A stretch of DNA of 64,000 bases from a bacterium (GTDB taxonomy: Bacteria; Verrucomicrobiota; Verrucomicrobiia; Limisphaerales; UBA11358): contig JAJXXW010000042.1 in assembly GCA_021780905.1 (NCBI GenBank), forward strand, positions 1 through 64,000, written 5' to 3'. The notes under the pieces are model-generated. The model was not told the DNA's origin. It was given only the letters and a program-made list of their open reading frames with translations, and searched no databases. A program made the translations under genes and the position numbers. Position 1 is the first letter of the stretch. Each line of letters starts with the position of its first letter. Positions 5,921 through 17,090 of this stretch are shown here, piece after piece.

Positions 5921-7384
5921 TCAAGCTGACGTCTTGATGCGCGCAAAAGCCGCGAGCGCCACCGCGCGGGCGGCGGCGTGGTCCACTATCGGCTGGGGAT
6001 AAGTTCGGCCCGGGTCCACGCCGGCGGCGCGGAGGATATCCGCCGGCCCGGTCTGTGGCCGGTGAATCCATTCCGCCGGCAGCCTGGCCAGTTCCGGGCA
6101 CCAGCGGCGGACATAATCGCCGTTCGGATCAAACTTTTCGCCCTGGGTTGTCGGATTAAAAATGCGGAAATACGGCGCGGCGTCAGCGCCGCAGCCGGCG
6201 GTCCACTGCCAGCCGAGCGTGTTCGATGGGAGGTCGGCGTCCACGAGCGTGTCCCAAAACCACCGCGCACCGTCCGACCACGGCAGCAGCAAATCCTTCA
6301 CGAGAAAACTGGCGACGATCATCCGCACGCGGTTGTGCATCCAGCCCGTGGTCCACAATTCGCGCATCCCGGCGTCCACAATCGGGTAGCCGGTGCGTCC
6401 GGTTCGCCAGGCGCGCAGCAAAGCCGCGTCCTCGCGCCACGGAAAGTTTTTGAACTGCGGCCGCAGCGGCTCGCCGGGGGTGTGCGGAAAATGAAACAGC
6501 AAATGGTGCGCAAATTCGCGCCAGCCGACTTCGGCGAGAAATTGCGAATTTCGCCATACGGCGGTTGGCAGTCCGCGTTTGGCCGCCATTGTTTTCACCC
6601 CGTGCCAGATCTGGCGCGGACTGATTTCGCCGGAATGAAGATGCGGCGAGAGGCGGGACGTGCCGACTGCGTCGGGCCGGTTGCGTTGGGCGGAATAGTC
6701 GTCGAACGCGGCGGTCAGAAATTTTTCCAACTGTTCCGCCGCCCCGGCTTCGCCGGGCTGCCAGGCGGCGCGCAAACCGCCGGCCCAGTTGATCTTTGGT
6801 GCCAGCCGCAATTCATCGAGTGCGATTGATTTCGGCCAGTGAGCGGGCGCGGCAAGTTTGATGGGCGCGGGCAGCGGCTTGGCCGGGTCGGCTTCGTTCA
6901 AGCACTGTTTCCAAAACGGCGTGAAAACCTGGAATGGCCGGTCGCTTTTGTTCCGAATCGTCCACGGCTCATTCAGCAGCGCGGCGTTGAAGCTTTCCAC
7001 TTTCACACCGTCGCCGCGAAGCGCCTCTTTGACGCGCGCATCGCGGGCGATGACGGCGGGTTCGTAGCGGCGATTCCAAAATACTGCGGTCGCGCCCGTC
7101 TCCTTGAGCAGCGCCCATAAAGTTTCCAGCGTCGGTCCACGCCGGATGATGAGTTGTGAACCCATGGTGCGCAGCTGGGCGTCGAGCGATTTCAGCGACT
7201 GGTGGAGCCACCACTTGGACGCTCCGCCCGGCGGCCAGGGCGCTTCCTCGTCGGGCGCGTGAATGAAAACCGGAATGGCCGCCCCGCCTAGATTCGCCGC
7301 CGCGTCCAGCGCTGGATTGTCGGCCAGGCGCAGGTCCAGCCGCAACCAGATGAGACTACCTGGTTCAATCTTCTTGGAATTCAT
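5921..7384 (-). CDS. phrB: Deoxyribodipyrimidine photolyase (class I CPD photolyase)
   Basis: Light-driven flavoenzyme that splits cyclobutane pyrimidine dimers. In 487 residues it shows the N-terminal antenna domain (LIWLRLDLRLADNPALDAA) and the FAD-binding domain with WREFAHHLLFHFPHT, GRTGYPIVDAGMRELWTTGW, MHNRVRMIVASFLVKDLL and the DADLPSNTLGWQWTAG and PYFRIFNP motifs typical of CPD photolyases. The ATG at 7384 is preferred over a TTG five codons upstream. It is the last gene of the leftward sigma-factor arm, 24 bases after the SDR gene, so it is probably induced with it. Photolyases are common members of light and singlet-oxygen regulons. Confidence 0.94.
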   Translation of the reverse strand: MNSKKIEPGSLIWLRLDLRLADNPALDAAANLGGAAIPVFIHAPDEEAPWPPGGASKWWLHQSLKSLDAQLRTMGSQLIIRRGPTLETLWALLKETGATAVFWNRRYEPAVIARDARVKEALRGDGVKVESFNAALLNEPWTIRNKSDRPFQVFTPFWKQCLNEADPAKPLPAPIKLAAPAHWPKSIALDELRLAPKINWAGGLRAAWQPGEAGAAEQLEKFLTAAFDDYSAQRNRPDAVGTSRLSPHLHSGEISPRQIWHGVKTMAAKRGLPTAVWRNSQFLAEVGWREFAHHLLFHFPHTPGEPLRPQFKNFPWREDAALLRAWRTGRTGYPIVDAGMRELWTTGWMHNRVRMIVASFLVKDLLLPWSDGARWFWDTLVDADLPSNTLGWQWTAGCGADAAPYFRIFNPTTQGEKFDPNGDYVRRWCPELARLPAEWIHRPQTGPADILRAAGVDPGRTYPQPIVDHAAARAVALAAFARIKTSA

Positions 7385-7408
7385 TTTTAAATTGATCAAG
7401 TGAGCCGC

Positions 7409-8890
7409 TTATTTTGAAGGAAAACCGGGGTTTTCCGTTGCACGCTCCGCGAGTTCGCCGGTTCGCCGGATGAGGCCGCTGAAAAGGAGGCCGTGGATCG
7501 GATAAAGCGCATACCAATATAAAAAGCCGAACAATCCTTTCGGCTCGAAGTAGGCCGTCTGCGTGAGTAGCGTTTGTCCATCGGCTTGCGGCGCTGACTT
7601 GAATTCGAGCCACGCGCGGCCGGGCACTTTCATCTCCGCCCGCAGGCGTATCAGCCGGCCCGGCTCGACCAGTTCCACGCGCCAAAAATCCAGGGGGTCG
7701 CCTACGCGCAGCTCTTCCGGGTCACGCCGGCCACGGCGCATCCCAACGCCGCCGAACAACCGGTCCACCAGACCGCGCAACTGCCACGACCAGTCCATAT
7801 ACAGCCAGCCCCGTTCGCCGCCGAGCCGCGTGAAACTGCGATAGACTTGCCCGGGTGTCGCGGCGACCGTTCGCTGCCGCCGTTCAATGATCATGCCCTC
7901 GCTGCTGATGAGGCTGACCGGAATTTTTTCGCCTTGGCTGGAGGTGAGCGCATCGCTCCAGGCGGTTTCGACATCGCACGCGCCCAGTTTTCCCAAGGCC
8001 AATTTCACCGCCGTTGCATAGTCGAGTGGATTAATTGCCGGAAAAAGTTTTCGCGCCTGGGCATCGCGGACAATGACTTCGTTGCCCAGGCCTTTGATCA
8101 GCGGCTGGGCAATATTCGCGGGAATGGGTGTGACCAGGTGCACCCAGTAGGAAGACAGCCGCGGTGTGAGCACCGGCACGGCGAGCAAATGCCGCTTTAA
8201 TCCACGAGCCTTGGCGTAGCCGGTCATCATCTCGGCGTAAGTGATCACATCTTGTCCGCCGATTTCCAGCGTTCGCCCGATGCTCGCCGGGCAAGTGAGG
8301 GCGGCAACGAGATAATCCAGCACGTTGCGAATGGCGATGGGTTGAATGCGCGTGAACACCCACTTCGGACAAATCATCACCGGCAACCGTTCCGTCAAAT
8401 AACGGATCATCTCGAATGACAAACTGCCCGAGCCAACGATGACTGCTGCGCGAAATTCCGTGACCGGCACGCCTGCCTCGCGCAAGGCCGCCCCCGTCTC
8501 GTGACGCGAGCGCAGATGAGGGGACAGGTTGGACTGCGGATCGCCGAGGCCCCCAAGGTAAATGATGCGTTCCACGCCGGCGGCTTTCGCGGCTTGGGCG
8601 CAGTTGCGGGCGGCGATCAAGTCGCGTTCGGAAAAGTCACCGCCGCTGCCCAGGCTGTGAACGAGGTAATACACCACTTCCACGCCGCGCATCGCTGCCT
8701 TCAACGAACCGGGTTGCAACACATCGCCGGTGGCCAGTTCCCCCTGCTCCCGCCAGGCACGGCCCTGGAGTCGCGCCGGGTCACGCACGAGGCACCGAAC
8801 GCGATGCCCGGCCGCGAGCAGGCGCGGGACCAGGCGCCCGCCGACATAACCGGTGGCGCCCGTGACAAGAATTGATTTGGTCTCGGCCAT
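7409..8890 (-). CDS. SDR-type NAD(P)-binding protein with C-terminal DUF2867
   Basis: A 493-residue two-domain protein. Residues 1-300 form an atypical SDR/NmrA Rossmann fold (ILVTGATGYVGGRLVPRLLAAGH, then VYYLVHSLG). Residues 330-490 match DUF2867, a START-like beta/helix domain (WLYMDWSWQLRGLVDRLFGGVGMRRGRRDPEELRVGD region). A C-terminal hydrophobic stretch (GLFGFLYWYALYPIHGLLF) may touch the membrane. The ATG at 8890 puts the Rossmann motif at the very N-terminus. It follows the anti-sigma gene by 99 bases on the same strand. Proteins of this architecture recur beside photolyase and CFA genes in light-stress clusters. The reaction is unknown. Confidence 0.88.
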   Translation of the reverse strand: MAETKSILVTGATGYVGGRLVPRLLAAGHRVRCLVRDPARLQGRAWREQGELATGDVLQPGSLKAAMRGVEVVYYLVHSLGSGGDFSERDLIAARNCAQAAKAAGVERIIYLGGLGDPQSNLSPHLRSRHETGAALREAGVPVTEFRAAVIVGSGSLSFEMIRYLTERLPVMICPKWVFTRIQPIAIRNVLDYLVAALTCPASIGRTLEIGGQDVITYAEMMTGYAKARGLKRHLLAVPVLTPRLSSYWVHLVTPIPANIAQPLIKGLGNEVIVRDAQARKLFPAINPLDYATAVKLALGKLGACDVETAWSDALTSSQGEKIPVSLISSEGMIIERRQRTVAATPGQVYRSFTRLGGERGWLYMDWSWQLRGLVDRLFGGVGMRRGRRDPEELRVGDPLDFWRVELVEPGRLIRLRAEMKVPGRAWLEFKSAPQADGQTLLTQTAYFEPKGLFGFLYWYALYPIHGLLFSGLIRRTGELAERATENPGFPSK

Positions 8891-8989: not shown

Positions 8990-9214
8990 TCACGGCCGTC
9001 CGACACGAGAAATAATCTTCCCGCGCAGTTGCGCCGGCGGTTCCACGACGGGCACCGCGCCCGCGATGGCGCCGGTGGCGATGCTCAAGCGCGCGACAAA
9101 CGCCTGCAACTCGGGATCATCATGCAGCTTCTGCTTGAATTCGCGGGCCTCCCTGCCGGTCAAGGCGCCGAGCACATGGAGCGAAGCCTGTTCCTGCAGC
9201 GGTTCGTCAATCAT
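8990..9214 (-). CDS. Short anti-sigma factor-like protein (RskA-type N-terminal domain only)
   Basis: Only 74 residues. The sequence follows the anti-sigma domain pattern of RskA/SigK regulators: LHVLGALTGREAREFKQKL, then DPELQAFV, then VEPPAQLRGKI. Full-length relatives are about 230-260 residues and continue into a transmembrane helix and a periplasmic domain; here a TGA comes just where the membrane helix should start. None of the other frames downstream restores a hydrophobic segment. The start overlaps the sigma gene stop by four bases, so the two are translationally coupled. It may be a soluble cytoplasmic anti-sigma or a truncated one. There is no zinc-binding HxxxCxxC motif. Confidence 0.72.
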   Translation of the reverse strand: MIDEPLQEQASLHVLGALTGREAREFKQKLHDDPELQAFVARLSIATGAIAGAVPVVEPPAQLRGKIISRVGRP

Positions 9215-9870
9215 AGCCAGTCCTCCAGTTGATCGCGCAGTTTCAGCAGACCGCGCCGGATGCGCGCCTTGACGGTGCCGAGCGGCGCGTTTAATTGTCG
9301 GGCAATTTCGTCCTGCGTCAGGCCTGAAAAATACGCCAGCTCAATGGCTTGGCGCTGCTCCAGCGGCAGCTCGCCAATGGCTGACCGGATCAACCGCGCC
9401 TTGTCGTGGCCGTGAATGGCTTCATTGGCCGTGTCATCGGTTTCGCCGGCCAGCGCGTATTCGCGACCGGCCTCCGCCGCCAGCCGCGACCGCCGTTGCG
9501 AGGCGCGGATTTTGTCAATCGCCTTGTTGCGCGCGAGAATGGCCGCCCAGCTTGAAGCCTTGCCGAGATCCGGGTTGAAGTTGGCGGCCTTGTCCCAAAT
9601 CTGCAGGAACGTCTCCTGGAGCACATCCTCCGCCTCCCCGGCGTCATTGAGGATTCGGACAGCCACCGAAAACATCAGGGTGGCGTGCCGGTCGTAGAAT
9701 TCGGCAAAGGCCGCACGATCCCCGGCGGCAATCCGCCGGAGCAGCGTAGGATCGTCCTGCCTGGATTCCGATTGGTTCACAGTATGGACCAAGGAAATGA
9801 TTTTCCCTGGCAGCCGGGCGGCAACCGCCGGCCAGCCCCGGGCAAAATCAATTGGCGCACACAGGCTCAT
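9211..9870 (-). CDS. ECF RNA polymerase sigma factor (SigK-like)
   Basis: A 219-residue ECF sigma factor. Region 2 is seen in FAEFYDRHATLMFSVAVRIL followed by EAEDVLQETFLQIWDKA, and region 4 as a helix-turn-helix in ELAYFSGLTQDEIARQLNAPLGTVKARIRRGL. The first 30 or so residues (to ISLVHTVNQSES) are not family-like, so the true start may be an internal codon such as the GTG in that stretch. It heads the leftward arm (sigma, anti-sigma, SDR/DUF2867, photolyase) and is divergent from the fatty-acid operon. A promoter-like element upstream matches one driving the opposite arm, which suggests autoregulation. Confidence 0.93.
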   Translation of the reverse strand: MSLCAPIDFARGWPAVAARLPGKIISLVHTVNQSESRQDDPTLLRRIAAGDRAAFAEFYDRHATLMFSVAVRILNDAGEAEDVLQETFLQIWDKAANFNPDLGKASSWAAILARNKAIDKIRASQRRSRLAAEAGREYALAGETDDTANEAIHGHDKARLIRSAIGELPLEQRQAIELAYFSGLTQDEIARQLNAPLGTVKARIRRGLLKLRDQLEDWL

Positions 9871-9910
9871 AGCAAATCCGCAAACAAGTTACAAGTTGGC
9901 ATCCTCATCT

Positions 9911-9941
9911 TAACTACGCCCGTTGCCGGCAAATGGATGCA
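9911..9941 (-). promoter_or_regulatory. Putative ECF-type promoter for the sigma/anti-sigma arm
   Basis: On the minus strand TGCATCCA (9941-9934) is followed by exactly 15 bases and then CGTAGTTA (9918-9911). Layout and words match the plus-strand element at 9953-9983, and the two -35-like words form an inverted pair. Initiation would fall roughly 30-40 bases before the sigma ATG. Confidence 0.6.
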
Positions 9942-9952
9942 AAAAAATTCCG

Positions 9953-9983
9953 TGCATCCAAAAGCACCCGCCATACGATGTTA
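9953..9983 (+). promoter_or_regulatory. Putative ECF-type promoter for the fatty-acid operon
   Basis: TGCATCCA (9953-9960), 15-base spacer, CGATGTTA (9976-9983). This is the twin of the divergent element for the sigma gene. It rules out the ATG at 9933 as the desaturase start, since that codon lies upstream of the promoter. Transcription would begin around 9988-9991, so the mRNA is leaderless or nearly so. Confidence 0.6.
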
Positions 9984-9986
9984 TCT

Positions 9987-11006
9987 ATGAAACAATTTAT
10001 GCACGCCATCATCAGCAAGTTGAGGATTGGTTTGGCCAAAAGTGCGGTTGCCCTCATTCACTGGTTTGACACCGACTATGGCAACGCCGATTTGACGGCC
10101 ATCCGCGCCAAGCCCGACCGTGTGGAATTCGTCCGCATCGCGCCTTTCATTCTGCTCCACCTGGGCTGTCTCGGCGCGATTTGGACCGGTTGGAGCTGGA
10201 CCGCCATCGGCGTCGCCGTGGGCTTGTATCTGCTGCGGATGTTCGCCATCACCGGGTTTTATCACCGCTATTTTTCCCACAGAACCTTTCACACCTCACG
10301 CCCGGCGCAGTTCCTGTTTGCCGTGCTCGGCGCCACCGCCGTGCAACGGGGTCCGCTTTGGTGGAGCTACCAGCACCGGCATCACCACAGGCATTCTGAC
10401 GGGGAGGAAGATGTTCATTCACCGGCTGTCCGTGGCTTCTGGTGGTCACACATTGGCTGGATTACCAGCGGACGGAATTTTCCGACCGATTATTCGCAAG
10501 TCCGCGACCTGGCGAAATTTCCCGAGCTGGTATTCCTGAACCGCTTCGACTCACTGGTTCCGGCTTTGTTCGCCGCCGCGTTGTTCGCCGCCGGCCATTT
10601 TCTCGGAGAATTTTTCCCTTCGTCCGGTGCAACGTCGTGGCAGTTGCTGGTCTGGGGATTTTTCATCAGCACGACGGTTTTGTTTCACGCCACCTCCAGC
10701 ATCAATTCCCTCGCGCACCTGCTCGGCAAGCGCCGCTACGAGACCGCCGACAACAGCCGGAATAGCCTTCTCCTCGCGCTCGCCACCCTCGGTGAAGGCT
10801 GGCACAACAATCATCACCGCTACATGAACGTCACGCGCCAGGGGTTTTACTGGTGGGAAGTTGATATCTCCTACTATTGTCTCAAGACGCTTTCGTGGAC
10901 CGGCCTGATTTGGAATCTCAAACCCGTGCCGCTGGCCGCCTATGAATATGAACATCCAGTTTCAACCCGCCACCGTATTTCGCATCCCCATTCGCATCGG
11001 GCATGA
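9987..11006 (+). CDS. Membrane fatty-acid (acyl-CoA/acyl-lipid) desaturase
   Basis: Integral-membrane di-iron desaturase of about 339 residues. The three histidine boxes are present: HRYFSH, QHRHHHRH and HNNHH, set among hydrophobic helices (FILLHLGCLGAIWTGW; LVPALFAAALFAAGHFL; LLVWGFFISTTVLF). It should introduce a double bond into acyl chains, probably at delta-9, using O2 and an electron donor. First of eight rightward genes; its stop overlaps the next ATG by four bases. Start chosen at 9987 because of the promoter position; ATGs at 9978 and 9999 are alternatives. It probably makes the unsaturated substrate for the CFA-type enzymes downstream. Confidence 0.9.
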   Translation: MKQFMHAIISKLRIGLAKSAVALIHWFDTDYGNADLTAIRAKPDRVEFVRIAPFILLHLGCLGAIWTGWSWTAIGVAVGLYLLRMFAITGFYHRYFSHRTFHTSRPAQFLFAVLGATAVQRGPLWWSYQHRHHHRHSDGEEDVHSPAVRGFWWSHIGWITSGRNFPTDYSQVRDLAKFPELVFLNRFDSLVPALFAAALFAAGHFLGEFFPSSGATSWQLLVWGFFISTTVLFHATSSINSLAHLLGKRRYETADNSRNSLLLALATLGEGWHNNHHRYMNVTRQGFYWWEVDISYYCLKTLSWTGLIWNLKPVPLAAYEYEHPVSTRHRISHPHSHRA

Positions 11007-12274
11007 AACGCGTGGCCATCATCGGCAGCGGCATCGCCGGTCTGGGGTGCGCGCATTTTTTACACCGCCGCTTCGACCTGACGCTTTACGAGAAAAACGA
11101 CTACGCCGGCGGTCACGCGAATACCATCGCCGTCACGGAAGCCGGGCGCTCACTGTCGATTGACACCGGCTTCATGGTTTTCAACGAACCGACTTACCCG
11201 AATCTCACCCGCCTCTTTCGCGAACTGGGCGTTGCCGTCAGTCCCACTAACATGTCCTTCAGCGTCCAGCATCTACCATCCGGGCTGGAATTTTGCGGCT
11301 CCAGCCTCAACCATATTTTTGCCCAGCGCAGAAATCTCCTCCGCCCGCGTTTCTGGCGAATGATTTTACAGATCAACCGCTTCAACTCGGAGGCCATCGA
11401 GGCGCTTGACTCGCCCGAGTTCCAAAATCACACGCTCGGCGAATACGTCCTGGAACGGAATTACGGCGACGATTTCCTAAATTTCTATCTGGTGCCGATG
11501 AGTTCCGCCGTCTGGTCCACCCCGCCGGATTTGATGCTGAAGTTTCCCGCCGTCACGCTGCTACGCTTTTTTCACAACCACGGTTTTCTCGGCCTGCACA
11601 CGCAGCATCCCTGGCTCACAGTTATCAATGGCGCAAAGGCCTACGTGGAAAAGCTCACGGCACCGTTTCGCGACAAAATCCGGTTGCGCCGTGGCGCCGC
11701 TGCCGTCCGCCGCGAAGGCGGCGGCGTGAAAGTCACTGACATTTCGGGCCACACGGCCCGCTTCGCTCACGTCATTTTTGCCTGCCACGCAGATGAAACC
11801 TTGGATTTGCTCGCTGATGCGGATGGCCAGGAGCGTGCGCTGCTCACGGAATTCAAATACCAGCCCAACTCCGCCCTGCTGCACACCGACGCCGCCGTGA
11901 TGCCCCGGAAAAAACTTTGCTGGGCGTCTTGGAATTACCGGATGGATCGCGGCACGGACGGGAAAATTTCGCCCTCGACGGTTTACTGGATGAATCGTTT
12001 GCAGGGCGTTTCCGGCCGGCAGAACTACTTCGTTTCCATCAACGGCGAAAATTCGGTGAATCCAAACACCGTGCTCAAGCGTATTCAATATGAGCATCCG
12101 CTGTTCAGCCTGGGCGCCATCCGGGCGCAGCGCGAATTGCCCAGACTCAACGAACGCATGGACAGCAACATCTTTTTTTGCGGCAGCTATTTTCGTTACG
12201 GTTTTCACGAGGATGCCTTCACGTCTGCGCTGGAAGTTTGCCGCGTCCTCACCCGCGAAAGGTTGTGGTCATGA
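11003..12274 (+). CDS. FAD-dependent oxidoreductase (amine-oxidase/NAD(P)-binding family)
   Basis: 423 residues with an N-terminal FAD-binding Rossmann motif (VAIIGSGIAGLGCAHFL), the ligand-contact region DLTLYEKNDYAGGHANT and a C-terminal FAD segment (NIFFCGSYFRYGFHEDAF). This is the family usually annotated NAD/FAD-binding protein or flavin-containing amine oxidoreductase that sits between DUF1365 and CFA synthase genes in many bacteria. By neighbourhood it probably oxidises or desaturates modified acyl chains rather than amines; that is inference. Start and stop overlap both neighbours by four bases. Confidence 0.88.
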   Translation: MKRVAIIGSGIAGLGCAHFLHRRFDLTLYEKNDYAGGHANTIAVTEAGRSLSIDTGFMVFNEPTYPNLTRLFRELGVAVSPTNMSFSVQHLPSGLEFCGSSLNHIFAQRRNLLRPRFWRMILQINRFNSEAIEALDSPEFQNHTLGEYVLERNYGDDFLNFYLVPMSSAVWSTPPDLMLKFPAVTLLRFFHNHGFLGLHTQHPWLTVINGAKAYVEKLTAPFRDKIRLRRGAAAVRREGGGVKVTDISGHTARFAHVIFACHADETLDLLADADGQERALLTEFKYQPNSALLHTDAAVMPRKKLCWASWNYRMDRGTDGKISPSTVYWMNRLQGVSGRQNYFVSINGENSVNPNTVLKRIQYEHPLFSLGAIRAQRELPRLNERMDSNIFFCGSYFRYGFHEDAFTSALEVCRVLTRERLWS

Positions 12275-13065
12275 ACTCCTGCCTTTATGAATGTTCTGTG
12301 ATGCACCACCGGTTCGCGCCGAAGGTTCACCATTTTCGGCACGACATTTTCATGTTTTACCTGGACTTGGACGAACTCCATCTTGCGGCCCGTAAAATTT
12401 TTCTGTTCAGCCACAACCGCCCGAACCTTTACAATTTCTGCGACGCCGACCACGAACCCGCCGGCGAAAACCCGCTCAAGGCGCGCCTCATCGCCTATCT
12501 GGGCCGCCACGGCATTGACCTCGACCCGGCCGGCCGGGTGATGCTCCTGACACTGCCGCGCATTTTCGGCTACGTTTTCAATCCCATTTCAATTTATTAC
12601 TGCTTCGATGCGCAGGGCACGCCGATCTGCACCGTGGCCGAGGTTGGCAACACTTTTCGAGAAATGAAGTTGTTCCTCCTCCGCCGCGAGGAGTTGGAAG
12701 CCTCGGCGACCTTCAAGAAACTTGCCCCCAAGCAGTTTTACGTCTCACCCTTTTCGAAATTGGATTTGAGCTTTGATTTCAAATTAAAAATTCCCGCCGA
12801 CCGGCTCGACATCAGAATTGACGACCGCGCCGGCGACGAACAAATTCTTGTCAGCACGCTCGCCGGCCGGCGCGCCGAACTCTCGAACCGCAATTTGGTG
12901 TGGTTCACGATCAAATATCCGCTCGTCACGCTGAAGGTGATTTTCCTGATCCACTGGCACGCGCTGCGGCTTTGGCTCAAGCGCGTGCCATTTTATCGCA
13001 AGGCGGAAAACGCCGCATTGCAACGCGAAGTCCTGCGCCCCCACTCCACCCTTGTTTCCAAATGA
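12271..13065 (+). CDS. DUF1365 family protein
   Basis: 264 residues. DUF1365 marks are the opening CLYECSVMHHRFAPKVHHFRH pattern, IFLFSHNRPNLYNFCDADH, LLTLPRIFGYVFNPISIYYCF, and EVGNTFREMKLF. The C-terminal TIKYPLVTLKVIFLIHWHALRLW stretch is amphipathic and may bind membrane. The ATG at 12271 overlaps the previous stop by four bases. Function is biochemically unassigned in general; the gene nearly always travels with the FAD protein and CFA synthase, pointing to a shared role in acyl-chain modification. Confidence 0.9.
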   Translation: MNSCLYECSVMHHRFAPKVHHFRHDIFMFYLDLDELHLAARKIFLFSHNRPNLYNFCDADHEPAGENPLKARLIAYLGRHGIDLDPAGRVMLLTLPRIFGYVFNPISIYYCFDAQGTPICTVAEVGNTFREMKLFLLRREELEASATFKKLAPKQFYVSPFSKLDLSFDFKLKIPADRLDIRIDDRAGDEQILVSTLAGRRAELSNRNLVWFTIKYPLVTLKVIFLIHWHALRLWLKRVPFYRKAENAALQREVLRPHSTLVSK

Positions 13066-14339
13066 ATCCATCCACCGCCACCTTGAAATCTCCACTGGCC
13101 CGGACGTGCGCCGATAAATCCGGCGGCTTTTACCAACGCGCCGTCCTGCAAGCACTCGGACAAATGACCCTCGGCTGCCTGCAGCTCGAACTGCCTGACG
13201 GCACAAAAAAAACCATCGGCCAGCCCGGCGCGGCCGTTGCCGCCAACGTCCGGGTTCTGAACTGGAACTTTTTCAAGCACTGCGTGCTGTTCGGCGACAT
13301 TGGTTTTGGCGAGGCGTATGTGGACGGCGACTGGGATACCGACGACATCGCGCGCGTCATTTCCTGGTTCATCCTGAATGTGGAAAATGCCCCGGCCATG
13401 TCCGGCTCGCGCGGAAAAAAGTTTGTCATCAACCTGCTGGGCGGCTGGAATCGACTCCGCCATTGGCTGCGGCCGAACAGTTTGGCAACCAGCCGCCGCA
13501 ACATCTCCGAGCATTACGATCTGGGAAATGATTTCTATAAATTGTTCCTGGACCCGACGATGACCTATTCCTCGGCGCTGTTTGAATCGCCCGATGAGAC
13601 TTTGGAGCAAGCGCAAACCGCCAAATATGACCGGCTTTGCCGCCAGCTCAAATTGAAACCCGGCGAGCACGTCTTGGAAATCGGCAGCGGCTGGGGCGGA
13701 TTCAGCCGGCACGCGGCAAAGAATTATGGCGTGCAGATCACGACGGTCACCATTTCCGAGGAGCAATTCAAATTCGCCGGGGACTTGTTTCAAAGCGAAG
13801 GTGTCGCCGACCGCGTGAAAATCAAACTCATGGATTATCGCCGGCTGACCGGCCAGTTTGACAAGATCGTTTCCATCGAAATGCTTGAAGCCGTCGGCGA
13901 TGCGTATCTCGAAACCTATTTCGCCAAATGCCACGAAGTTTTGAAACCCGGCGGTCTGCTCGCGTTGCAAATGATCACCTGTCCCGATTCGCGCTACGAT
14001 TCGCTCCGCAAAAATGTGGACTGGATTCAAAAGCACATTTTCCCCGGCTCGCTGCTCTTGTCCGTGCATCGGGTCAATCAGGCGTTGCGCCGAACCGGCG
14101 ATCTGTATCTGCACGATCTGAAAGACCTCGGACTTTCCTATGCCGAAACCCTCAGGCGCTGGCGCGTCGCTTTCAACCAGCATGAATCCGCCGTGCGCGC
14201 GTTGAAGTTTGACTCACGGTTCATTCGCAAATGGAATTACTATTTAAGCTACTGCGAAGCGGCGTTTGCCCGACGCAACATCACCGTGGTCCAGGCGATT
14301 TACTCGCGTCCGAATAATCCGACCCTGCAACTCCCATGA
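13062..14339 (+). CDS. cfa: Cyclopropane-fatty-acyl-phospholipid synthase
   Basis: SAM-dependent enzyme that methylenates cis double bonds of membrane phospholipid acyl chains. 425 residues, with an N-terminal lipid-binding domain (GDIGFGEAYVDGDWDTDD) and a class I methyltransferase domain (HVLEIGSGWGGFSRHAAKNYG, DKIVSIEMLEAVG). The conserved CFA core is seen in ISEHYDLGNDFYKLFLDP and MTYSSALFE, and the family C-terminus in FDSRFIRKWNYYLSYCEAAFARRN. The ATG at 13062 overlaps the DUF1365 stop by four bases. It may make cyclopropane or methyl-branched chains; the fold alone does not decide between these. Confidence 0.93.
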   Translation: MNPSTATLKSPLARTCADKSGGFYQRAVLQALGQMTLGCLQLELPDGTKKTIGQPGAAVAANVRVLNWNFFKHCVLFGDIGFGEAYVDGDWDTDDIARVISWFILNVENAPAMSGSRGKKFVINLLGGWNRLRHWLRPNSLATSRRNISEHYDLGNDFYKLFLDPTMTYSSALFESPDETLEQAQTAKYDRLCRQLKLKPGEHVLEIGSGWGGFSRHAAKNYGVQITTVTISEEQFKFAGDLFQSEGVADRVKIKLMDYRRLTGQFDKIVSIEMLEAVGDAYLETYFAKCHEVLKPGGLLALQMITCPDSRYDSLRKNVDWIQKHIFPGSLLLSVHRVNQALRRTGDLYLHDLKDLGLSYAETLRRWRVAFNQHESAVRALKFDSRFIRKWNYYLSYCEAAFARRNITVVQAIYSRPNNPTLQLP

Positions 14340-14671
14340 TTATCTTCCTTCGTTTCGTTTTTACGTTTGTGCTCATCACCATGCTCTGCGCCACGAGCTG
14401 GGCGAGCTGTCAATGCGCGCTCTGGAAAACCCCGCAGGCGCTCGTCACCCATCCGTGGTTTATCGCGACGCTTTTCGATTGCTACTTCGGCTTTCTGACA
14501 TTTTACATCTGGCTGGCCTACAAGGAGACTTCCATTGCGGCACGAATCGTCTGGCTCATCGCGATTCTGTTGCTCGGCAATATCGCGATGTCGTGCTACA
14601 TGCTTTGGACACTTTTTCGCCTGCCGACAAATGCCACGATGGAACAGGTTTTGTTGCGCCGAAAACCATGA
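14336..14671 (+). CDS. Small four-helix membrane protein (possibly DUF1475)
   Basis: 111 residues with about three to four hydrophobic helices: FLRFVFTFVLITMLCATSWA, HPWFIATLFDCYFGFLTFYIWLAY, and ARIVWLIAILLLGNIAMSCYMLWTLF. Size and spacing resemble DUF1475/DUF2834-type small membrane proteins known beside CFA clusters; the exact family is uncertain. Four-base overlaps on both sides make it an integral part of the operon. Confidence 0.75.
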   Translation: MIIFLRFVFTFVLITMLCATSWASCQCALWKTPQALVTHPWFIATLFDCYFGFLTFYIWLAYKETSIAARIVWLIAILLLGNIAMSCYMLWTLFRLPTNATMEQVLLRRKP

Positions 14672-15186
14672 ACACCGCCGTGACTATCCAATCTACCAAC
14701 GCATCGCGCCTGAAAAAATTCTGGCGCGACCGCGTCGTCGGATTGGTCGGCGCACAACTGATGCAGGGCGTGACACCGCAAAAAGTCGCGCTCACCCTCG
14801 CGCTTGGTGTCAATCTCGCGATGTTTCCAATTTTAGGATCAACCACGTTGCTGTGCGCCGCCGTTGCGTTCTGGCTCAAGCTGAATCAGCCTATCATCCA
14901 GCTGGTCAACTGGCTCGCCTACCCGCTTCAGTTCGCAATGCTGCTTCCGTTCGTGCGGATCGGCGAATGGCTCACGGGCGCACGCCGGGTGTCTTTTTCC
15001 ATTCCGCAGTTGCTACAGAAATTTCATGACGCGCCGGGAGGCTTTTTACACGAATTTGGGATGACCGGCGTTCACGCAATCATCGCATGGCTGCTCATCG
15101 CGCCGCTGCTCTTTGCGTTGATCTATTTTCTTCTCCTGCCACCGCTCCAAAGGCTGGCGAACCTCAAAAGGCAAAATGCTGACTGA
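14668..15186 (+). CDS. DUF2062 domain membrane protein
   Basis: 172 residues. The DUF2062 core is visible as QGVTPQKVALTLALGVNLAMFPILGSTTLLCAAVAFWLKLNQPIIQLVNWLAYPLQ, a re-entrant helix pair with the GxxxGxFP-like turn, followed by a C-terminal membrane anchor (IIAWLLIAPLLFALIYFLLLPP). The role is unknown; members are often near glycosyl or acyl transfer genes. The ATG at 14668 overlaps the previous stop by four bases and its own end overlaps the next gene by 11 bases. Confidence 0.85.
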   Translation: MNTAVTIQSTNASRLKKFWRDRVVGLVGAQLMQGVTPQKVALTLALGVNLAMFPILGSTTLLCAAVAFWLKLNQPIIQLVNWLAYPLQFAMLLPFVRIGEWLTGARRVSFSIPQLLQKFHDAPGGFLHEFGMTGVHAIIAWLLIAPLLFALIYFLLLPPLQRLANLKRQNAD

Positions 15187-15994
15187 ATTTCTCAACGCCT
15201 TGTGGCCGGTGGCGGTCTTCGCCGTCAGCTTGATGTTCTTTATCTGGTGGCTGGCGCTGCGCGTCAACAACCTTGGCATTGTGGACATCGCGTGGTCCGC
15301 GGCGTTTGCGCCCGTGGCGATTTTCTGCGCGCTGGCCACGCACGGCGACCCGGCGCGGCGCTGGCTCATCTGCACCATGGCCGCCCTGTGGAGTCTGCGG
15401 CTGGGCACGCATCTCTATTTTCGCGTGACCGGCCACCATCCGCAGGAGGACGTTCGCTATGGCCAAATGCGGGTCCAATGGGGCGGAAGCCTGAAATCCA
15501 AGGCGCTGATTTTCTTTGAACTTCAGGCCGCCTTGATCGTGCTGCTGTCCACGCCATTTTTGGTGGCGTGCCTGAATCCGCGTCCGGGCATTTCAACTTT
15601 GGAATGGGCGGGTGTCGGCGGGTGGTTCGTCGCGCTCGTTGGCGAAAGTCTGGCGGACCGGCAGTTGAAGGCATTTCGTTCCCGACCGGAAAACCACGGC
15701 AAAGTTTGCCAGACCGGCTTGTGGAACTATTCGCGCCACCCGAATTACTTTTTCGAGTGGCTGGTGTGGGTGGCATTTTTCCTCTTCGCCTGGGATTCGC
15801 CGGGCGGCTGTTGGACGGTGCTGTGTCCGGCTTTAATGCTTTTTTTCCTTTTGCGCGTCACGGGGATTCCGCTCACCGAGGAGCTTTCCTTAAAGAGCAA
15901 AGGCGACGCCTATCGTGAATACCAAAGCACCACGAGCGCTTTCGTGCCGTGGTTCAAGAAGAAAAAACAACCCGCGCAATTCCATGAACGCTGA
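15176..15994 (+). CDS. DUF1295 / steroid 5-alpha-reductase-like membrane protein
   Basis: 272 residues, six or seven hydrophobic segments. The C-terminal half carries the isoprenylcysteine-methyltransferase/5-alpha-reductase signature ([24 protein letters not shown] and [26 protein letters not shown]), a fold that binds NADPH or SAM next to a lipid substrate. A reductase acting on an acyl-chain double bond would fit the neighbourhood, but this is inference. The gene overlaps DUF2062 by 11 bases and the following methyltransferase by 11 bases. Confidence 0.9.
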
Positions 15995-17090
15995 ACCAAC
16001 GCTGCCGCTGGCTGCCGGCGCGACCATAAACCACCACGCGTTGGCCCGGCCGACGCTGAGGCTCGACCGGCTGCTGGAAAAAAACTGGTTGCCTGACTGG
16101 CTCATCCGCATCGGTATCCGGCGGTTGCTGCGCGAGCGCCTGCAAGAGGAGAACCGGGGCGGCGCGGAAGCCCAGCAAGCCCATCTGCTCAAGCTCATCG
16201 CGGAATTGAAACAATCGCCCATCGCCCTAGAAACCCAAGCCGCGAACGAACAGCATTACGAAGTGCCAACCCGGTTTTATCAGCTTTGCCTCGGCGCGCG
16301 GCTGAAATACAGCGGCGCGCTCTGGCCGGAAGGGGTGACGACCCTGGACCAGGCCGAGGAAAAAATGCTGGCGCTGACCTGCGTCCGCGCACAGCTCGCC
16401 GACGGTCAGCGCGTCCTCGAACTCGGCTGCGGCTGGGGTTCGTTGTCGCTGTGGATGGCGGAACGTTATCCGCACGCCGCCATCACCGGCGTTTCCAATT
16501 CCGCGACTCAAAAGCTGCACATTGACGCCGAGGCGCACAAGCGCGGCCTGAAAAACCTGCGTATCATCACCTGCGACATGAACCAATTGGACCTGGCTGG
16601 AAAATTTGATCGCGTCGTCTCCGTGGAAATGTTCGAGCACATGAAAAATTACGAGCGGCTCATGGCCAACATTTCGCGCTGGCTCCAGCCGGACGGAAAA
16701 CTTTTCGTCCATATTTTCACTCACAAGAAATACGCCTATCATTTCATTGCCCGTGACGCGTGGGACTGGATGGCGCGGTATTTTTTCACCGGCGGCATCA
16801 TGCCAAGTGATGATTTGCTGCTCTATTTCCAGCAGGATTTGAGCATCGAGAACCACTGGCGCCTCAACGGCGCGCATTACCAACAAACCGCCGAGGCGTG
16901 GCTGGCGAACATGGACGCGCACGAGCGGGAGATTCGCCCATTGTTTGCCCAAACCTACGGCGCGGAAAATGCGACGCGCTGGTGGGTTTACTGGCGAGTG
17001 TTCTTCATGGCCTGCGCCGAGCTGTGGGGCTTCCGCCGAGGCGAGGAATGGCTCGTCTCGCATTATCTGTTTTGTAATCAGGCACGCTGA
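15984..17090 (+). CDS. Second CFA-like SAM-dependent methyltransferase
   Basis: 368 residues, class I methyltransferase with motif [21 protein letters not shown] and the acidic pair [16 protein letters not shown]. Its C-terminus ([32 protein letters not shown]) differs clearly from classic Cfa and resembles the coclaurine N-methyltransferase-like/CFA-like branch. The N-terminal 100 residues lack the usual Cfa lipid-binding domain. A second methyltransferase in the same operon as a bona fide Cfa suggests a different methylation on the same lipid class, such as methyl-branched chains. It is the last gene of the operon. Confidence 0.88.

Follow-up and report, generated by a model that had tools for sequence, protein, structure and literature searches.

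The closest described systems are SigK-RskA, RpoE-ChrR and the ufaM/ufaD/ufaO operon for furan fatty acids. SigK-RskA pairs (ECF18/ECF19) are found in mycobacteria and their relatives, and SigK promoters read CCATCC-N-CCGAAT; a search of the literature did not find a SigK promoter consensus. Autoregulation of sigK via Rv0449cp in M. tuberculosis is described in an excerpt of PMC7509140, which also gives the share of members with cysteines 133 and 183 of SigK as 94% for ECF18 and 56% for ECF19. Of the genes of Mycobacterium kansasii, mpk83 and mpk70, both with putative SigK sites, were raised by light (PMC9861118, in excerpt). An excerpt of PMC11832516 describes the rpoE-chrR pair (ECF11) as a system for singlet oxygen. 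For Rhodobacter sphaeroides, an excerpt of PMC7380195 reports that furan fatty acid increases when chrR is deleted and that UfaO introduces oxygen into furan fatty acids; DUF1365 is given there as the UfaO family.

We compared these systems with the window, by which we mean the whole 64,000-nucleotide stretch of DNA that was analyzed. The window resembles SigK-RskA in carrying a SigK-like sigma factor and an RskA-type anti-sigma, and the likeness extends to gene content: at a Tsukamurella locus, genes for an FAD oxidoreductase, a DUF1365 protein, a methyltransferase, a lipocalin, sigK and an anti-sigma follow one another, and CATCC-N16-CGAAT stands 33 nt upstream of the FAD oxidoreductase gene that leads the series. 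This was the one clear case of a shared CATCC-type -35 word among the three sigK-annotated plasmid loci examined. The plasmid records examined were 5 of 161 with sigma matches and 1 of 56 with DUF1365 matches; only two of the five plasmid sigma loci had a clear site, none being clear at two Frondihabitans loci and at Aquisphaera. A Thiothrix sigma/anti-sigma pair is preceded by TGCATCC-N16-CGTA. The window differs from SigK-RskA in having divergent twin promoters rather than a single co-directional operon, -10 words of CGTT/CGAT rather than CCGAAT, a sigma factor without cysteines 133 and 183, an RskA reduced to its N-terminal domain and lacking the RskA C-terminal domain, and a different phylum, Verrucomicrobia, to judge by the names of related loci.

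The resemblance to RpoE-ChrR lies in the wiring. In Phyllobacterium sp. T1018, sigma-ChrR genes are divergent from genes for an FAD oxidoreductase, a DUF1365 protein and a photolyase, and twin divergent TGATCC-N16-CGTA sites stand 27 bp apart. The window, in contrast, has a cysteine-free, RskA-type anti-sigma instead of a ChrR-type zinc anti-sigma, and TGCATCC rather than TGATCC as the -35 word of both arms. As in the ufaM/ufaD/ufaO operon, a DUF1365 (UfaO family) gene adjoins genes for a Cfa-like methyltransferase and an FAD oxidoreductase, but the window operon has eight genes, with a desaturase first and with DUF1475, DUF2062, DUF1295 and a second methyltransferase in addition. Divergent wiring is known already from RpoE-ChrR, and the window pair, judged by its genes and sites, is the SigK-type counterpart. 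Furan-fatty-acid-type lipid genes would be found under two sigma groups that share one divergent layout, RpoE-ChrR and SigK-RskA. For Verrucomicrobia, the locus supplies both an operon and a promoter motif of a SigK-type sigma factor; our literature search, which included ECF19 with Verrucomicrobia and DUF1365, returned no description of a SigK-type sigma promoter or operon in that phylum.

The twin sites lie between the sigma gene and the lipid operon. Recognized from their letters and from orthologous loci, they are TGCATCC-N16-CGTAGTTA in the sigma arm (9911..9941, minus strand) and TGCATCC-N16-CGATGTTA in the lipid operon arm (9953..9983, plus strand). The words and positions given in the initial annotation are exact, with 0 mismatches in either site, and the 11-bp separation that it reported between the -35 words is correct. 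To the right, eight genes lie end to end or overlapping on the plus strand: a fatty acid desaturase (9987..11006); an FAD-dependent oxidoreductase of the amine-oxidase fold family, UfaD-like by position (11003..12274); a DUF1365 protein of the UfaO family (12271..13065; PMC7380195, in excerpt); a cyclopropane-fatty-acid-synthase-like methyltransferase of the UfaM/Cfa family (13062..14339); a DUF1475 membrane protein (14336..14671); a DUF2062 protein (14668..15186); a DUF1295 protein (15176..15994); and a second Cfa-like methyltransferase (15984..17090). All were assigned by domain matches, and the last by family matches as well. The desaturase ATG at 9987 is 4 nt past the -10 word, and the next in-frame ATG is at 9999. 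The cluster had rightly been labeled a fatty-acid operon; UfaO (DUF1365) and Cfa-family methyltransferase genes occur together in the operon. To the left, on the minus strand, the genes for the sigma factor and the anti-sigma are followed by genes for an NmrA-like/NAD-binding protein with a DUF2867 domain (7409..8890; domain matches) and a protein of the DNA photolyase / cryptochrome family (5921..7399; domain and family matches). A scan listed no minus-strand terminator between 8850 and 10050; transcription may therefore run on into the photolyase gene.

The best reading of this arrangement is autoregulation together with control of the divergent operon: the adjacent SigK-like ECF sigma factor very probably reads both promoters. 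RNA polymerase carrying it would recognize TGCATCC (-35) and CGWW (-10), 16 bases apart, in both directions. Leftward, the sigma factor would amplify expression of its own gene and of the anti-sigma gene, which the NmrA/DUF2867 and photolyase genes follow on that strand. Rightward, it would switch on the lipid operon, the core of which, made up of the FAD oxidoreductase, DUF1365/UfaO and Cfa-like methyltransferase genes, resembles furan-fatty-acid synthesis and may yield a product of that type. Two lines of evidence argue for this reading, namely conservation of the sites on both arms and the tie between the pair and the presence of the sigma gene, and they support the original proposal that one ECF sigma factor drives both arms, its own gene included.

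Conservation was examined in the genus, where DUF1365 is present in 15 of 49 genomes. In every one of these 15 loci the sigma gene adjoins the DUF1365 operon and is divergent from desaturase, FAD oxidoreductase and DUF1365 genes, and the later operon genes are present where the contig allows (one contig, in G035, stops after DUF1365); DUF1475 had no match in two loci (G033, G063) and DUF2062 none in another (G070). Eight of the 15 loci matched publicly named sequences, from Limisphaerales and other Verrucomicrobia. The site is TGCATCC-N16-CGA(T/A) in 15/15 operon arms and TGCATCC-N16-CGT(T/A) in 14/15 sigma arms, the remaining sigma arm, that of G070, being TGCATCT-N16-CGTA. In all arms of the 15 loci, 16 bases separate TGCATCC from CG. 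Information content per column is 2.0 bits in the -35 word (computed from 14 and 15 aligned rows), 1.8-1.9 in CGWW, and 0.6 and 0.8 in the spacers. The conserved core of both sites across the 15 aligned loci is TGCATCC-N16-CGWW; the -10 motif first put forward, CGWWGTTA, is too specific, because its GTTA tail is common to both window sites but unconserved in the orthologues. With the core so defined, the motif is kept upstream of the orthologous clusters on both arms, a check that the initial annotation had suggested. The same -35 word, spacing and -10 core stand before the sigma gene and before its presumed target operon and are retained in orthologues, as in an autoregulated pair.

The association of the motif with the sigma gene was followed in 320 genomes of the order. 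The twin pattern had a match in 17 of them, and in 13 of those the match was both-stranded; all 13 both-sided twins adjoin an orthologue of the window sigma gene. The reversed pattern, used as a control, had 0 matches in the 320 genomes, a control that underestimates the background for single sites. Of the one-sided matches, one is near a paralogue of the sigma gene (G066), one is away from its genome's two sigma orthologues (G241), and two are in genomes with no sigma match at E up to 1e-30 (G001, G182). Two of the 15 genus loci were missed by the both-sided pattern, G066 with a 108-bp gap between its -35 words and G070 with its one-letter change. An earlier relaxed pattern, matched in 17 of 49 genus genomes, had too strict a tail and missed the operon arm. 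Single TGCATCC-N16-CGWW sites occur in 49/49 genus genomes, so that little can be read into an isolated one.

The motif also precedes sigma relatives that have no lipid operon. TGCATCC-N16-CGT is upstream in 7/7 such Verrucomicrobia loci (L066-L072), three of which (L069, L070 and L072) are nearly identical in the compared upstream region. Among nine further sigma loci without the lipid operon the motif is found in seven, changes in the first two letters being allowed, and is absent before the sigma gene in two (L152, L158). Among 25 named loci, a site of matching spacing stands upstream of the sigma match in 16, one (L073) has too little upstream DNA for judging, and no site was seen upstream in the others (L074, L076-L078 and L079-L082); a Balneolia locus, L075, has CATCC-N16-CGTA.

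Both ECF promoters could be real but be read by another ECF sigma factor of the genome, or by several. The genome encodes at least eight sigma relatives, and ECF sigma factors can cross-recognize promoters. The tie of the both-sided twins to the orthologue of the window sigma gene (13/13 cases) speaks against such a reading, as does the presence of the site before paralogues of the window sigma gene that lack the lipid operon, and we regard it as very unlikely.

Even less probable, in our estimate, is that a dimeric regulator, for example a light- or redox-sensing repressor, uses the inverted pair TGGATGCA-N11-TGCATCCA as its operator and that the -10-like words are incidental. The two words do make a clean inverted repeat, and the distance between them is 9-11 bp in 12 of the 15 loci, but in the remaining three it is 6, 20 and 108 bp. 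A spacing that is fixed within each promoter and variable between the -35 words indicates two promoters and not a rigid operator. Moreover, unpaired single sites precede sigma genes elsewhere, and no linked regulator gene was seen at these loci, where the search was not systematic. A rigid palindromic operator was rejected on the gap lengths (6, 9, 10, 11, 20 or 108 bp) set against the constant distance from TGCATCC to CG.

The frequency of the sites was compared with several expectations. A pattern search of the window with up to 3 mismatches showed no enrichment (16 matches found vs 18.75 expected), and the 14 matches other than the twin sites differ from the pattern at 2-3 positions. Taken singly, the word TGCATCCA is about as frequent as shuffles predict, with 3 copies in the window vs 2.85 expected. 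The pattern TGCATCC-N14..18-CGNNGTTA, on the other hand, is found at only these two places in the 3.89 Mb genome, and its reverse at none. In first-order Markov simulations of the window, TGCATCC-N16-CGWW arose at a rate of 0.26 sites per 64 kb, and none of 120 simulations contained a divergent twin within 120 bp. A Poisson estimate gives 0.0019 such twins per genome for a pattern that was fixed after the sites were seen, and the real evidence is conservation in relatives. Chance resemblance, in favor of which stands the commonness of the individual words, has a negligible probability in view of the conserved sites and their constant spacing across 15 genomes despite a drifted spacer, and of the empty reversed control.

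The sigma factor (9211..9780, minus strand, with the open frame reaching an ATG at 9870) is SigK-like by family matches and orthologue alignment. Its closest solved relative in the PDB is SigK of M. tuberculosis (4nqw, E 7.4e-33), followed by RpoE (4.1e-20); the curated NCBIfam cut-offs are missed, with 169.7 bits vs 226 for PRK09646 (SigK) and 177.7 vs 222 for the best model, PRK12519. Alanine and glutamine occupy the positions of SigK cysteines 133 and 183, and neither column contains a cysteine in the 23 aligned rows, one of which is gapped at position 183. The start codon is probably GTG 9780. ATG 9870 is doubted as a start because it lies inside a conserved TATRAN word, which reads TATAAT and TATAAA, with no ATG, in two loci (G070 and G054), and because residues 6-30 of the long frame are unconserved: mean identity there is 17% to 10 orthologues, as against about 72% for residues 39-219 (more distant orthologues were omitted from these figures).

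The TATRAN word belongs to a putative second promoter of the sigma arm, the sigma70-like TTGTAA-N17-TATGAG (9866..9894, minus strand), which overlaps ATG 9870 and sits downstream of the ECF -10 word. Of 27 loci compared, 16 retain TTGTNN-N17-TATRAN at the corresponding position, comprising 14 of the 15 genus loci together with G057 and G054, three of the spacings having been counted by eye. A simple consensus scan does not list this promoter, since it accepts only -10 words with T as the sixth base. The sigma70-like promoter would supply basal amounts of the sigma factor and the anti-sigma.

The anti-sigma of the window (8990..9214, minus strand) is 74 aa long and consists of an RskA-type N-terminal domain only, as judged by comparison with relatives; NCBIfam anti-sigma matches are weak and below cut-off. 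It has no cysteine and no Pfam match, and no solved relatives were found at E up to 1, whereas both of the two full-length relatives given to Pfam matched RskA_C (PF10099). Short copies of 74-77 aa are found in 3 of 14 readable loci (the window, G067 and G070, the two besides the window being loci L061/L160 and L148); the other 11 have a long anti-sigma of 264-270 aa, and the copy in G008 is cut by the contig end. A hydrophobic stretch begins at residues 88-92 in 11/11 long copies and 0/3 short ones. The Kyte-Doolittle maximum of the window protein is 1.74 and falls within the N-terminal domain, and no remnants of a membrane domain were found after the short anti-sigmas. In a four-protein tree the three short anti-sigmas do not fall together, and an AU test of a single clade gave p 0.0037, although most branches are weak.

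The 74-aa fragment most likely still inhibits, free of a membrane signal, by analogy with cases in an excerpt of PMC7509140: the Nocardia RskA is 81 aa and that fragment inhibits, and 9% of cysteine-less SigK proteins have an RskA of <150 aa. More speculatively, and in our judgment rather improbably, SigK/RskA may more than once have lost its tie to the membrane in this lineage, with the anti-sigma reduced to its sigma-binding domain. A soluble inhibitor would then govern the twin promoters by way of stoichiometry, proteolysis or a cytoplasmic signal, and the -35 words, set closely back to back, would admit one polymerase at a time and thereby fix the ratio of sigma-arm to lipid-arm transcription. 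Repeated loss of the membrane part would provide natural variants in which the working of RskA could be studied.

The trigger of the system is probably light, singlet oxygen or another membrane-oxidizing stress, a suggestion drawn from furan fatty acids, the photolyase and the parallel with RpoE-ChrR.

The motif had also been offered as a means of finding a wider regulon, but no convincing further member emerged in the window's own genome, and the regulon is apparently local as far as sequence patterns reveal it. All six other exact sites are within mechanically called ORFs of at least 150 aa. The longer pattern with up to 1 mismatch gave seven other sites, five of them within ORFs of at least 100 aa. 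TTCATCC sites outside ORFs of at least 100 aa, at C46:15089-15119 and C64:18781-18811 (both minus), are possible promoters; a 108-aa ORF lies 146 nt downstream of the latter.

Additional copies of the motif were noticed in relatives. At L071 (3252-5068), a Verrucomicrobia locus with a more distant sigma factor, the divergent neighbor is a DUF4331 gene with a motif of its own. A copy lies behind the anti-sigma gene of a paralogous sigma locus (L152:5545, minus), and at L063 (5086-5164) a third copy stands 78 nt before a series of polyketide-cyclase-like, SDR and photolyase genes behind the anti-sigma gene.
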